Positions 13,050 through 19,096 of a DNA stretch of 64,000 bases are shown piece by piece; position 1 is the first letter of the stretch, and the number at the start of each line of letters is the position of its first letter. The stretch spans positions 62,001-126,000 of the forward strand of contig MSTD01000013.1 in NCBI GenBank assembly GCA_001942045.1, in the 5' to 3' direction. The DNA is from Mycolicibacterium porcinum. GTDB lineage: Bacteria; Actinomycetota; Actinomycetes; Mycobacteriales; Mycobacteriaceae. The position numbers and the translations under genes are program-made. The notes under the pieces are model-generated. The model was not told the DNA's origin and ran no database searches. It was given only the letters and a program-made list of their open reading frames with translations.

Positions 13050-13766
13050 GTGAGCTATCCGCCGCAAGGCCCGCCGCCGTACGGCCCGCCGCCCCACGGG
13101 CAGCCTCCTTACGGGCAGCAGCCCCCGCATTGGCCACCACCGCCCTACGGCCAACCACCGCAGTGGCCTGCGGCCGGCCCGCCGATCCGGCCCAGGAAAT
13201 CGGGGCTCGGCATCGCGATCGTCGCCGTTATCGCCGTCGTGAGCCTCTTGTTCGTCGGTTTCATCGGGTACGAGATCTACCGGGCGGACGCTGAAGGGCA
13301 GGACCGGACTGCCTATTCGGCATCTGACTTCTCTGACGCATGCGACAACGACCACATCACCAACGCCGCCGAATACCGCGAGCCCTACAACGTCGTGGCG
13401 TTCTTCAAGGGGCTCGGTCTCGTGGATGAAATCTGGCTGTCGGTCGCGGATGACAAATGGGCCACGTCCGGCGACTTCACCGAGATCAATGTGGTCGCCT
13501 GCCTGGAGCGGAAAAGGGGCAGCGAGGCGAAGGTGACCTCGTGCGTCGACGACGATGACCACACAACGGTCAACTACTACTCCGTCGAGTACGAGATCAC
13601 CTTCCGCGAGGCCAAGACCGGCAAGGTGATCATGGACGGGGGAACAGTGCCCGGTACTGCCGGAAGTTGCCCCGTCCTGGGCTCCTATGACAAGAGGTCT
13701 CGCAAGATGTACGCCAGGCCGGACGAGGATGCGGTGCGGGCCGCGTTGGACGCGTTCGCAGGTTAG
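13050..13766 (+). CDS. Proline-rich N-terminus, single-pass membrane protein, unknown function
   Basis: 238 aa, GTG start. The first ~47 residues are a Pro/Gly/Tyr/Gln-rich tail (PPYGPPPHGQPPYGQQPP), then a basic RPRKSG, one hydrophobic segment (about residues 53-76) and an extracytoplasmic domain of ~160 residues with four cysteines that could form disulfides. This layout is common in mycobacterial envelope proteins. No catalytic motif is recognised. The place is that occupied by PE_PGRS40/Rv2370c in M. tuberculosis, but the protein is unrelated to PE proteins. Confidence 0.8.
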   Translation: MSYPPQGPPPYGPPPHGQPPYGQQPPHWPPPPYGQPPQWPAAGPPIRPRKSGLGIAIVAVIAVVSLLFVGFIGYEIYRADAEGQDRTAYSASDFSDACDNDHITNAAEYREPYNVVAFFKGLGLVDEIWLSVADDKWATSGDFTEINVVACLERKRGSEAKVTSCVDDDDHTTVNYYSVEYEITFREAKTGKVIMDGGTVPGTAGSCPVLGSYDKRSRKMYARPDEDAVRAALDAFAG

Positions 13767-13905: not shown

Positions 13906-16029
13906 GTGACGCCCCGCGACACGACCGCTGACTCGTCGGCCACCGCATCGGAATCGGTCCGCAGCAGCATCACTGTTCCGCCCGACATCATCGTGGGCCT
14001 GCTCGGCTCGGCTGATGAGAATCTGCGGGCCCTCGAAACACTTCTGGCTTCCGACATCCACGCCCGCGGCAATGAGATCACCTTCACCGGTGAGCCCGCC
14101 GACGTGGCGCTGGCTGAACGTGTGGTCGCCGAGCTGATCGCCGTCGCCTCCGCCGGGCAGGCGGTGACGCCCGAGACGGTACGGCACAGCGTCGCCATCC
14201 TCACCGGCACCGAAGACGAGTCGCCGGCCGAGGTGCTCACGCTCGACATCCTGAGCCGCCGCGGCAAGACCATCCGGCCCAAGACGCTGAACCAGAAGCG
14301 CTACGTCGATGCCATCGATGCGCACACCATCGTGTTCGGCATCGGCCCGGCCGGTACCGGCAAGACATACCTGGCGATGGCCAAGGCAGTCAGCGCGCTG
14401 CAGTCCAAGCAGGTGAACCGGATCATCCTGACCCGCCCCGCGGTGGAAGCCGGTGAGCGCCTCGGTTTCCTGCCCGGCACATTGAGCGAGAAGATCGACC
14501 CGTATCTGCGTCCGCTCTACGACGCGCTGCACGACATGATGGACCCCGAACTGATCCCAAAGTTGATGAGCGCCGGGGTAATTGAGGTCGCACCGTTGGC
14601 ATACATGCGGGGCCGGGCCCAACCCCTGTTCGCCAACGTGCTGACACCTACCGGGTTCCGGCCGATCGGTGAGCTCAAGGTCGGCGATTTCGTGATTGGT
14701 TCAGACGGGTCGCCGACTGAGGTGACGGGTGTATACCCGCAGGGCTTCAAGGAGATCTACCGCGTCTTCACTCAAGACGGCGCATCGACCCTCGCCTCCG
14801 GTGACCATCTTTGGGCGGTGTACACGGCTTCCGATCGGCGACGGAACAAGCCGGCTCGGATACTCGAGACCAAGGAGATGATCGGAAACCTCCGTGCTGC
14901 TCATGCTCACCGCTACGAGCTACCGGTACTGAGTGCGCCGGTGAAGTTCGAGTCTCGGCCCGTCCCGATGGACCCGTATGCACTCGGGTTGCTGTTGGGT
15001 GACGGAAGCTTCTCCTCGCGTGCGACTCCGAGTTTCACGACGAAGGATCCGGAGCTGGCAGAGGCGTTGGGACGGCTCATCCCGGGTATCGAGGTTCGAC
15101 GCAAGACCGACATCGGATATGTGTTGAACCGGATCACCACACCCGGTGAGGTCATCACGATCGAGAACCCGGTGACGGGCGTGATGCGTCGACTCGGCCT
15201 GTCCGGCAAGAAATCCGAAGCGAAGTTCGTACCCGAGGATTACCTGTTCAATTCGGCGGATGTGCGTTTGGCGGTGCTGCAGGGACTTCTCGATACCGAT
15301 GGTGGTCCGGTAACCCAAGAAGGCCGGACCTGCCGGATCCAGTACACGACGGTGTCTGATCGGTTGTGCGACAACGTGATCTTCCTCGTCGAGTCTTTGG
15401 GCGGTGTGGTTTATCTGCGGACCCGGGATGCTGCCGGCCGCAAACCGGGCCTGGCCCGCGGCCGAGAGGTCCACCATCGGTACGACTCGAACGTTCTCGA
15501 CATCCGCTTGCCCGAGGGCCTTATCCCGTTCCGGCTCGCGCGCAAGGCCGAGAAGTACGCCGCGACGGGTGGGGGCCGTCCGATGCGATACGTGGACCGT
15601 ATCGAACCCGTGGGCACCACGGAGGCGGTCTGCATCAGTGTCGCCGCAGAGGACTCCCTGTATGTGACCGAGGATTTCCTCTTGACGCACAACACCCTCA
15701 ACGATGCGTTCATCATCCTCGACGAGGCACAGAACACCACCGCCGAGCAGATGAAGATGTTCCTGACGCGCCTCGGCTTCGGCTCGAAAGTCGTTGTCAC
15801 CGGCGATATCACGCAGGTGGATTTGCCCGGCGGGGCCACCTCCGGGCTGCGGGCCGCGATGAACATCCTCGACGGTATCGAGGACATCCACTTCGCCGAA
15901 CTCACCAGTGCCGACGTGGTCCGGCACCGCCTGGTGTCCGAGATCGTGGACGCCTATGCCCGACATGAGGAGCCGGCATTGCTCAACCGTGCCCAACGCC
16001 GTTCGTCGAACGGGCGGCCCCGCAGATGA
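13906..16029 (+). CDS. phoH1: PhoH-like ATPase, interrupted by an intein
   Basis: Cytoplasmic P-loop ATPase of the PhoH family, linked in other bacteria to RNA metabolism together with YbeY. The GTG at 13906 begins [10 protein letters not shown], matching the usual N-terminus; an upstream in-frame start at 13789 is unlikely. KH-like N-terminal part, Walker A GPAGTGKT (residues 147-154), then after MRGR the reading frame enters a 359-residue intein and resumes with [14 protein letters not shown] (Walker B). Removing the intein gives 348 aa, close to the usual PhoH1 size. The intein must be excised for the ATPase site to form. ATGA overlap with ybeY. Confidence 0.93.
14617..15693 (+). mobile_element. 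Class 3-type intein with LAGLIDADG homing endonuclease in phoH
   Basis: In-frame protein intron of 359 residues between Arg of MRGR and Thr of TLND. It begins with Ala (no N-terminal Cys/Ser) and ends LTHN, followed by Thr. Block B ends SGDHLW, putting Trp at 66; the F block reads EAVCIS with Cys339, and Thr357 precedes the terminal His358-Asn359. Ala1 plus this Trp/Cys/Thr set is the diagnostic pattern of class 3 inteins, which splice through the internal Cys. Both endonuclease motifs keep their acidic residue: [10 protein letters not shown] (Asp129) and [10 protein letters not shown] (Asp228). GC-ending codons look fewer than in the flanking phoH (24 of 34 against 30 of 34 in samples counted by hand), suggesting transfer. 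Confidence 0.9.
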
Positions 16030-16562
16030 GTGTCGAGGTATCCAACGAGTCGGGCATCGACGTCTCCGAGGACGAGCTGATCAGTGTCGCGCGGTTCGTC
16101 ATCGCGAAGATGGACGTGAACCCGGCGGCTGAGCTGTCGATGGTGCTGGTGGACAGCGCCGCGATGGCCGACCTGCACATGCGGTGGATGGACCTGCCGG
16201 GGCCCACCGACGTGATGAGCTTCCCGATGGACGAGCTGGAGCCCGGGGGACGCCCGGATTCGCCTGAGCCGGGTCCGTCCATGCTCGGCGACATCGTGCT
16301 GTGCCCTGAGTTCGCCGAACAGCAGGCCGCCAAGGCCGGGCACTCACTGGGTCAGGAGTTGGCGCTGCTGACCGTGCACGGCGTGCTGCACCTGCTCGGC
16401 TACGACCACGCCGAACCGGACGAGGAAAAAGAGATGTTCGCGCTGCAGCGCCAGCTCCTCGAGGAATGGGTGGCTGATCAGGTCGAGGCGTACCACGCCG
16501 ATCGGCAGAGCCAGAAAGATCAGCGCCTGCTCGACAAGTCCCGATATTTCGACGAACCGTGA
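16026..16562 (+). CDS. ybeY: Endoribonuclease YbeY
   Basis: Metal-dependent RNase of the UPF0054 family, involved in 16S rRNA 3'-end maturation and 70S quality control in bacteria where it was studied. 178 aa. The zinc motif [11 protein letters not shown] (His118, His122, His128) is complete, and the conserved [11 protein letters not shown] and [10 protein letters not shown] segments are present. Starts inside the phoH stop (ATGA) and ends in a GTGA overlap with the next gene, so all three are translationally coupled. Confidence 0.95.
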
Positions 16563-17890
16563 CCGGCATACTTCCGCTGCTCGGCGCCGTGGTGCTGGTC
16601 GGCTTCGGTGGCCTGTTCGCAGCCATCGACGCCGCGCTGTCCACCGTCTCGATCGCGCGCATCGAGGAACTGGTCCGCGACGAACGTCCCGGCGCCGCCC
16701 GGCTCAGCCGAGTCGTCGCGGAACGGCCCCGCTACATCAATCTTGTTGTCCTGCTACGAATCACCTGCGAGATCAGCGCCACGGTCCTGCTGGTGTCGTT
16801 TCTGGACGGTCACCTCGGTGTCAGCTGGGGTCTGGTGGCCTCGGCCGCGATCATGGTGGTGACGAGCTTCGTGGCCATCGGCGTCGGCCCGCGTACGGTC
16901 GGCAGGCAGAACGCGTACTCGATCGCGTTGATCTCGGCATTGCCGCTGCAGGCGATCTCGGTGCTGCTCACCCCGATCAGCCGGCTGCTGGTGCTGATCG
17001 GTAATGCGCTGACGCCCGGTCGTGGTTTCCGCAACGGTCCGTTCGCCTCCGAGATCGAGCTGCGTGAGGTCGTCGATCTGGCCCAGCAGCGCGGCGTGGT
17101 GGCCGACGAGGAACGCCGGATGATCCAGTCGGTTTTCGAACTGGGGGATACCCCGGCGCGCGAGGTCATGGTGCCGCGCACCGAGATGGTGTGGATCGAA
17201 AGTGACAAGTCAGCGGGCCAAGCCACGTCGCTCGCGGTACGGAGCGGGCATTCCCGCATCCCGGTCATCGGCGAGAACGTCGATGACATCGTCGGCGTGG
17301 TTTACCTGAAAGATCTTGTCCAGCAGACCTATTACTCGACCAACGGCGGCCGCGACACCAACGTGGCGCAGGTGATGCGCCCGGCGGTGTTCGTCCCGGA
17401 CTCCAAGCCGCTCGACGAACTGCTCAACGAGATGCAGCGCGACCGCAACCACATGGCGCTGCTCGTCGACGAATACGGCGCCATCGCCGGGCTGGTCACG
17501 ATCGAGGACGTGCTGGAGGAGATCGTCGGCGAGATCGCCGACGAGTACGACACCGATGAGGTGGCCCCGGTCGAAGACCTCGGTGACCGTCAGTACCGGG
17601 TGTCGGCACGGCTGCCGATCGAAGACCTCTGCGAACTCTACGAAATGGAAGCCGACGAGGACCTGGACGTGGACACCGTGGGCGGGCTGGTGGCGTTCGA
17701 ATTGGGCCGCGTGCCGCTGCCCGGCGCCGAAGTCACCTGGGACGGTCTGAGATTGCGCGCCGAAGGTGGTTCCGACCATCGTGGCCGGGTGCGGATCGGC
17801 ACGATCCTGGTGAGCCCGGCAGAAGAAGCCGAGAAACCCGAGACCCTCGATCCGCCCCGCGCGCGAGGAGGACAGGAAGCAGATGACTGA
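16559..17890 (+). CDS. CorC/HlyC-type CBS-domain membrane protein
   Basis: 443 aa, GTG start overlapping the ybeY stop. N-terminal DUF21-type membrane region with several hydrophobic helices, a linker with [19 protein letters not shown], a pair of CBS domains ([12 protein letters not shown] and, after [39 protein letters not shown]) and a C-terminal CorC/HlyC domain ([19 protein letters not shown]). Relatives are implicated in magnesium or other divalent-cation transport; substrate not deducible here. Equivalent to Rv2366c. Confidence 0.92.
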
Positions 17891-18200
17891 GCTCGACGCA
17901 GAAGACAACAAGCTCGTGGTGTTGGCACGTGGCGCGATGGGCCGTGCCGAGGCGTCCTCGGGTGCGGCGGTCCGCGATCAGGACGGCCGGACCTATGCCG
18001 GAGCGCCGGTGAGTCTGGCGGCGCTGCAGCTGACCGCGCTGCAGGCGGCGGTGGCCGCTGCGGTGTCCAGCGGCGCGACCGGACTTGAGGCCGCCGTGCT
18101 GGTGGGTGGCGCCGCCGACGACGCCGGCGTGGCCGCGGTGCGGGAACTGTCGGCCGACGCCGCGGTGATCGTCACCGACCGGGCAGGAAACCCAGTATGA
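17883..18200 (+). CDS. Degenerate cytidine deaminase-like protein
   Basis: 105 aa, equivalent in place and size to Rv2365c. The layout [38 protein letters not shown] resembles the N-terminal half of cytidine deaminase, but the zinc ligands expected in that fold (HAE and PCxxC) are absent; there is no cysteine at all. A catalytic deaminase is therefore unlikely. It overlaps the CBS-protein gene by eight bases and era by four, so it is made in fixed proportion to Era and may be a partner or chaperone (inference). Confidence 0.75.
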
Positions 18201-19096
18201 GTGAATTCCGTTCCGGCTTCGTCTGTTTCGTCGGCCGGCCCAACACCGGCAAGTCGACGCTGACCAACGCACTGGTGGGCCAGAAGGTGGCGATCACCTC
18301 GAACCGGCCGCAGACCACCCGGCACACGATCCGCGGCATCGTGCACCGTGAGGACTTTCAGATCATCCTGGTCGACACCCCTGGACTGCACCGGCCGCGC
18401 ACCCTGCTCGGGCAGCGACTCAACGACCTGGTCAAGGACACCTACTCCGAGGTCGACGTCATTGGTCTGTGCATCCCGGCCGATGAGCGCATCGGTCCCG
18501 GTGACCGCTGGATCTATCAGCAGATCCGCGCGGTGGCGCCCAAGACCACGCTGATCGCCGTCGTCACCAAGACCGACAAGGTGTCCAAGGACCGCGTCGC
18601 CGAGCAGCTTCTCGCGGTCAGTGAGCTCGTCGGGCCCGACGCCGACATCGTGCCGGTCTCGGCCACCGCCAACGAACAACTCGACGTGCTCACCGATGTC
18701 CTGGTCTCCAAACTCCCTCCGGGGCCCGCGTATTACCCCGACGGTGAGTTGACCGACGAGCCAGAAGAAGTGCTGATGGCCGAGCTCATCCGGGAGGCCG
18801 CGCTGGAAGGCGTGCGTGATGAGCTGCCGCACTCGCTGGCCGTGGTCATCGAGGAAGTGTCCGAGCGCGAAGGCCGCGACGATCTCATCGACGTACACGC
18901 CATCCTCTACGTCGAGCGCGACAGCCAGAAGGGCATCGTGATCGGCAAGGGCGGGGCGCGGCTGCGCGAGGTCGGCACCGCCGCCCGCACCCAGATCGAG
19001 AAGCTGCTCGGCACAAAGGTGTATCTCGACCTCCGGGTCAAGATCGCCAAGAACTGGCAGCGCGATCCCAAACAGCTGGGGCGTCTGGGGTTCTAG
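18197..19096 (+). CDS. era: Ribosome-assembly GTPase Era
   Basis: Essential GTPase that binds the 3' end of 16S rRNA and checks 30S assembly. 299 aa, ATG overlapping the previous stop. G motifs: GRPNTGKS (residues 13-20), DTPGLH (60-65), TKTD. The C-terminal KH domain has VIGKGGARLREVG. Being in one coupled run with phoH and ybeY, it forms a small rRNA maturation/quality-control operon. Confidence 0.97.
   Translation: MSEFRSGFVCFVGRPNTGKSTLTNALVGQKVAITSNRPQTTRHTIRGIVHREDFQIILVDTPGLHRPRTLLGQRLNDLVKDTYSEVDVIGLCIPADERIGPGDRWIYQQIRAVAPKTTLIAVVTKTDKVSKDRVAEQLLAVSELVGPDADIVPVSATANEQLDVLTDVLVSKLPPGPAYYPDGELTDEPEEVLMAELIREAALEGVRDELPHSLAVVIEEVSEREGRDDLIDVHAILYVERDSQKGIVIGKGGARLREVGTAARTQIEKLLGTKVYLDLRVKIAKNWQRDPKQLGRLGF

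Follow-up and report, generated by a model that had tools for sequence, protein, structure and literature searches.

A predicted class 3 intein with a homing endonuclease domain in PhoH of Mycolicibacterium porcinum: probably a mobile passenger rather than a conditional switch

In a 64,000-nucleotide stretch of contig MSTD01000013.1 of Mycolicibacterium porcinum (hereafter the window; phoH with its intein and the ybeY, membrane-protein and era-like genes described below lie on the forward strand), the gene for the ATPase PhoH (phoH) is interrupted by an in-frame insert of 359 codons, which raises the question of what kind of element this is and whether it serves PhoH or is simply carried by it. 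The answer favoured here, with a probability of about 0.9, is a class 3 intein next to the Walker B motif of PhoH that looks active and still mobile, is expected to splice by default and is a neutral or near-neutral passenger. The phoH gene (13906..16029) matches the Pfam PhoH family in two stretches (E 1.3e-90). The N-extein (13906..14616) contains the Walker A motif GPAGTGKT (14344..14367) and ends in APLAYMRGR; directly after MRGR begins the intein (14617..15693), a stop-free frame running from Ala1 to Asn359; and the C-extein, including the stop codon (15694..16029), opens with a +1 Thr (15694..15696) and carries FIILDEAQ (15709..15732), which we take to be the Walker B motif of PhoH, five residues downstream of the insertion point. 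With the GTG at 13906 as start codon, the precursor has 707 residues, exactly as long as the database copy (P0001), and spliced PhoH is calculated at 348 residues; the mechanically called open reading frame starts at GTG 13789 (746 residues; 387 after splicing). The original prediction had given these intein limits, Ala1, Trp66, Cys339, Thr357, an LTHN end, a +1 Thr and a precursor of about 707 residues, all of which proved exact, the last with the GTG 13906 start. It had also held that PhoH reads correctly once the insert is removed, and the joined flank, used as an 80-residue probe, is in fact contiguous in 256 of 297 surveyed genomes, all from the M. setense (G001) genus, to which the window presumably belongs in view of its 95% intein identity.

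The assignment to class 3 is supported by sequence, by conservation within the family and by predicted structure. The family set comprises the window intein and 80 related loci (retained from an initial 90), that is 81 sequences, and all 80 loci share the PhoH insertion site and the Trp, Cys and Thr-His-Asn residues. Trp66 (14812..14814) in block B, Cys339 (15631..15633) in block F, the predicted initiating nucleophile, and Thr357-His358-Asn359 (15685..15693) in block G are unchanged in 81/81 sequences, and since this invariance extends to relatives with as little as 52% identity (best tblastn segment), chance occurrence is excluded. His64 of block B (14806..14808) and Tyr349 (15661..15663) are likewise present in all 81, and a +1 Thr follows the intein in the window and at all 80 loci, in line with the Ser or Thr that is usual, though not strictly required, in class 3. 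A profile alignment with class 3 DnaB inteins places Trp66, Cys339 and Thr357 in the class 3 columns (Trp B:12, Cys F:4, Thr G:5), as originally proposed, and matches His64/Trp66 and Cys339 to His65/Trp67 and Cys118 of DnaBi1, the DnaB intein of M. smegmatis (numbering of His65/Trp67 from PMC5222942), whose zinc-binding Tyr128 has its counterpart in Tyr349. Residue 1 is Ala in 77 of the 81 sequences, including the window, and Ser in four, a pattern in keeping with class 3. That the intein really belongs to class 1 or class 2 is therefore extremely improbable: Ala1 excludes the class 1 start chemistry, and the Trp66/Cys339/Thr357 triplet is present and invariant. Pfam gives only a weak match to the Hint family (Hom_end_hint, E 0.00065, below the cut-off); the AlphaFold model of the intein (mean predicted local distance difference test score 91) nevertheless shows the Hint (intein splicing) fold and superposes on the M. 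smegmatis class 3 DnaB intein with a root mean square deviation of 1.5 Å over 123/125 residues. The four Ser1 inteins, found in PhoH of Nonomuraea and Streptomyces (L042, L055, L070 and L073), retain the Trp, the block F Cys and the Thr and do not form one group in a quick tree; their Ser1 could be a regained position 1 nucleophile.

In such an intein, Cys339 would attack the peptide bond preceding Ala1, the acyl group would then be transferred to Thr+1, and Asn359 would cyclise, leaving PhoH ligated (about 348 residues). As the insert adjoins Walker B, it is reasonable to suppose that PhoH function depends on this splicing. A degenerate intein that no longer splices efficiently, so that phoH is effectively disrupted, has a precedent in an Arthrobacter DnaB-type intein termed a pseudogene (PMC3196547). 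Here, however, the frame is open and every splicing residue is present, and the ratio of nonsynonymous to synonymous divergence (dN/dS), calculated between the window and the nine nearest of the 80 relatives, lies far under 1 for each intein domain in 9/9 pairs (splicing domain, 0.033-0.105; endonuclease domain, 0.049-0.135; extein flanks for comparison, 0.005-0.104). This purifying selection makes degeneration very unlikely; together with the intact residues, it fits an element in which splicing works and the endonuclease mostly does.

The endonuclease domain of the window intein spans approximately residues 112-317 (14950..15567, limits set by eye) and matches both Pfam LAGLIDADG_3 (E 1.8e-10, above the cut-off) and PI-SceI, the yeast VMA intein. 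It contains the two motifs and acidic residues expected of a LAGLIDADG endonuclease, namely LGLLLGDGS (14983..15009; GDG at residues 128-130), whose Asp129 is Asp or Glu in 79/81 sequences, and LQGLLDTDG (15277..15303; DTDG at residues 226-229), with Asp226 in 81/81 and Asp228 in 76/81. In 66 of the 81 inteins the length is at least 350 residues and acidic residues stand at both 129 and 228. This enzyme would cut a conserved site in intein-free phoH alleles, and the element would spread in this way.

The distribution is consistent with such spread, being patchy at a single site. In the census of 297 genomes, a PhoH-type intein (at least 68% identity) was found in 32, as one full-length match in 26 and in two pieces in 6. 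The joined-flank probe was split in 32 genomes, the very ones that carry the intein, and contiguous in 256 as stated above, the two states being called partly from the best E-value (at most 7.9e-39 when contiguous; between about 1e-19 and 1e-22, and with three matches, when split). Nine genomes (G026, G034, G071, G104, G107, G127, G261, G276 and G289) could not be assigned, and re-examination of all of them except G127 left the site unsettled; a different insert in the PhoH of G034 was considered and rejected, the gene lying at a contig edge where the match ends before the site. The closest loci are those of M. fortunisiensis and M. setense (95% intein identity) and the closest proteins those named M. 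farcinogenes and M. conceptionense (97% identity), presumably all of the M. fortuitum group. Inteins at the PhoH site also occur in Nocardia, Gordonia, Skermania, Streptomyces, Nonomuraea, Lentzea, Kutzneria and other genera, and in a class-level sample, where calls were made from the intein match alone, 25 of 394 genomes carry an intein at 58-95% identity (one in two pieces). The original prediction called class 3 inteins rare; at the PhoH site they are patchily distributed, though widespread in Actinomycetota. A record with the whole gene in a plasmid collection (Nonomuraea gerenzanensis, 69%) was not used, since its length of 11.9 Mb suggests a chromosome.

Divergence at synonymous sites suggests movement between close species. 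For seven of the nine nearest relatives (L007, L008, L009, L010, L047, L069 and L080) synonymous distance is greater in the intein than in the flanks (0.98-1.78 vs 0.34-0.86, a ratio of 1.4 to 4.6), whereas it is lower in the intein for M. setense L005 (0.21-0.23 vs 0.50) and, less clearly, for M. fortunisiensis L006 (0.27-0.39 vs 0.41). Several observations nevertheless weigh against a still mobile element. Firstly, intein G+C content at third codon positions (0.75) is below that of the flanks (0.82-0.84), and values above 1 occur among the synonymous distances in several cases; codon bias or saturation may therefore explain the contrast in rates. Secondly, 15 of the 81 inteins are shortened or have lost an acidic residue of the endonuclease. 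Thirdly, in a quick intein tree of 81 rows, whose support values come only from the Shimodaira-Hasegawa-like approximate likelihood ratio test, Streptomyces, Nocardia, Lentzea, Gordonia and Kutzneria are each set apart by a single branch, with support of 87-98, a grouping by genus that fits long vertical residence. Rows labelled Mycobacterium, Mycolicibacterium or Nonomuraea do not group in this way, the first two being names that overlap in usage. On this evidence the family looks old, with gains and losses inside genera.

Whether the insert also regulates PhoH is the remaining part of the question. The original prediction proposed that oxidation or metal acting on the catalytic Cys could switch PhoH off; in this scenario the intein is retained as a sensor, and zinc or oxidants block Cys339, leaving PhoH unspliced and inactive until the stress ends. 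There is a published precedent in DnaBi1, whose splicing stops when oxidation joins Cys118 and Cys48 in a disulfide (PMC6195587) or when zinc binds to Cys118, the Val119 backbone and Tyr128 (PMC7360933, section 11); sulfenic acid formation on the catalytic Cys has also been suggested for DnaB inteins (PMC8557812). The residues of the zinc site (a Cys, the backbone of the next residue and a Tyr at +10) have counterparts in Cys339, Ile340 and Tyr349, which are kept in 81/81 sequences, and metal inhibition is therefore still plausible. Conservation of the active site is, however, required for splicing in any case. Moreover, DnaBi1 Cys48 aligns with position 47, which is Ile in 77 sequences, including the window, and Val in 4, so that the DnaB-type redox trap is absent; the only other cysteines of the window intein, Cys239 (conserved in 79/81) and Cys251 (5/81), are confined to the endonuclease; and the 256 genomes with an uninterrupted site manage without the insert. 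A conditional switch consequently appears unlikely, and the insert is better read as a passenger, spliced by default, of a family already known from mycobacteria. Direct oxidation of Cys339, for example to sulfenic acid, is possible by analogy with DnaB.

Additional cysteines were observed in other lineages and are all lacking in the window: at position 61 (CxxH, block B) in 32/81 sequences, at 60 in 28/81 and at 337, where the Cys makes a C-x-C with the nucleophile, in 9/81. All 21 Streptomyces rows and all 8 Pseudonocardiaceae rows have Cys61, often with Cys60, next to the block B His, and nine Streptosporangiaceae have Cys337. These residues are possible redox partners. An extended proposal, in which zinc or oxidants modify Cys339 directly, so that PhoH inteins act as a brake on PhoH by way of the conserved Cys-Ile-Tyr site instead of the DnaB disulfide, with lineages adding a second thiol of their own, seems improbable.

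A phage origin was also part of the original prediction, and Tori and Perler reportedly proposed one for class 3 inteins in 2011. No recent phage donor of the PhoH intein is visible here. Among 549 phage records with a match, the best-ranked of the matches listed has 42% identity, no phage intein with at least 60% identity is found among the matches listed (the best 40 of the 549 records), and a scan of viral_contigs gave only four loci, at 27-28% identity. The best-ranked match is gp2 of Mycobacterium phages Phrappuccino and Settecandela. Its intein aligns over 100% of the PhoH intein and shares an AQPL start, the block B His and Trp, the block F Cys and a THN end, but it differs in insertion sequence, in its +1 Cys and in its host protein, which is annotated as a terminase (two records) or as DarB-like (a third) and has no Pfam match at E 1e-5. 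By sequence it is a distant relative only, and the 'DarB-like antirestriction' label may follow the intein and not the host protein. The NC_054727.1 copy of gp2 (L086:2569-3627) combines Ala1, the block B Trp, the block F Cys and THN with a +1 Cys, a residue known, according to a 2016 account, in just one class 3 intein (PMC5222942). In Caudovirales GX15bay (L085, MK557849.1), a gene annotated as PhoH contains a class 3-like intein of 35% identity; the protein was not accepted as PhoH, its flanks being unlike PhoH by eye, and the name may come from the intein.

Other distant relatives came from a class-wide bacterial sample, namely five inteins in large proteins, with 38-42% identity over the full length. 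Three were examined: two host proteins match the RecG family, and the third is a different protein of helicase type. The intein of one actinobacterial RecG (L098:2548-3561, +) is inserted at the P-loop, GSGK|T, and that of the helicase-type protein (L099:4240-5313, +) at GAGK|T; both begin with AQP, contain His-Leu-Trp and a block F Cys and close with THN|T, all of them hallmarks of class 3. The second RecG (L100) is known by family match only. The literature search yielded no paper on a RecG with a class 3 intein.

Downstream of phoH lie ybeY (16026..16562; Pfam YbeY, E 2.6e-38), which overlaps the phoH stop, a gene for a CNNM/CBS/CorC_HlyC membrane protein (16559..17890), a small gene with no Pfam match (17883..18200, 105 residues) and an era-like gene for a GTPase with a KH domain (18197..19096). 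Upstream are hrcA, dnaJ, an RNA methyltransferase gene and a gene with no Pfam match (13050..13766, 238 residues). The ybeY and era-like genes are thus neighbours of phoH, but this does not show that splicing controls the coupled YbeY/Era module named in the original prediction, and with PhoH uninterrupted in 256 of the 297 genomes such a switch is not generally needed.

In summary, the window provides a further clear member, with an endonuclease domain, of a class 3 intein group that has already been described. Across Actinomycetota this group forms a single family, patchy and probably mobile, that occupies one site in PhoH. The regulation idea is narrowed: the disulfide mechanism published for DnaB cannot work in this intein in its described form, but the zinc mechanism could; PhoH inteins thereby offer a natural test of which DnaB findings extend to other class 3 inteins. 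In kind and host gene the PhoH intein is already known, and the window contributes one more allele. Indeed, one intein is reported in PhoH of M. smegmatis (PMC7360933), and a 2018 alignment of class 3 inteins includes those in PhoH of M. fortuitum (OBK00716) and M. xenopi (EID13626) (PMC6195587, Fig. 6a). A search lying mostly outside the subscription literature found no paper on tested splicing or stress response of a PhoH intein. The M. fortuitum and M. xenopi inteins resemble that of the window in host protein, mycobacterial host and class 3 splicing, and no difference in kind is apparent from the published description, on which, rather than on sequence or insertion site, this likeness is based. 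PI-SceI, a class 1 intein, shares 21% identity with the window intein over the aligned part. DnaBi1 (PDB 6bs8, 6own) shares with it the class 3 triplet, the fold and the zinc-site residues, but is described as lacking an endonuclease, as inserted at the P-loop and as having a +1 Ser and Cys48, whereas the window PhoH intein lies before Walker B, is followed by a +1 Thr, contains an endonuclease domain and has Ile47.
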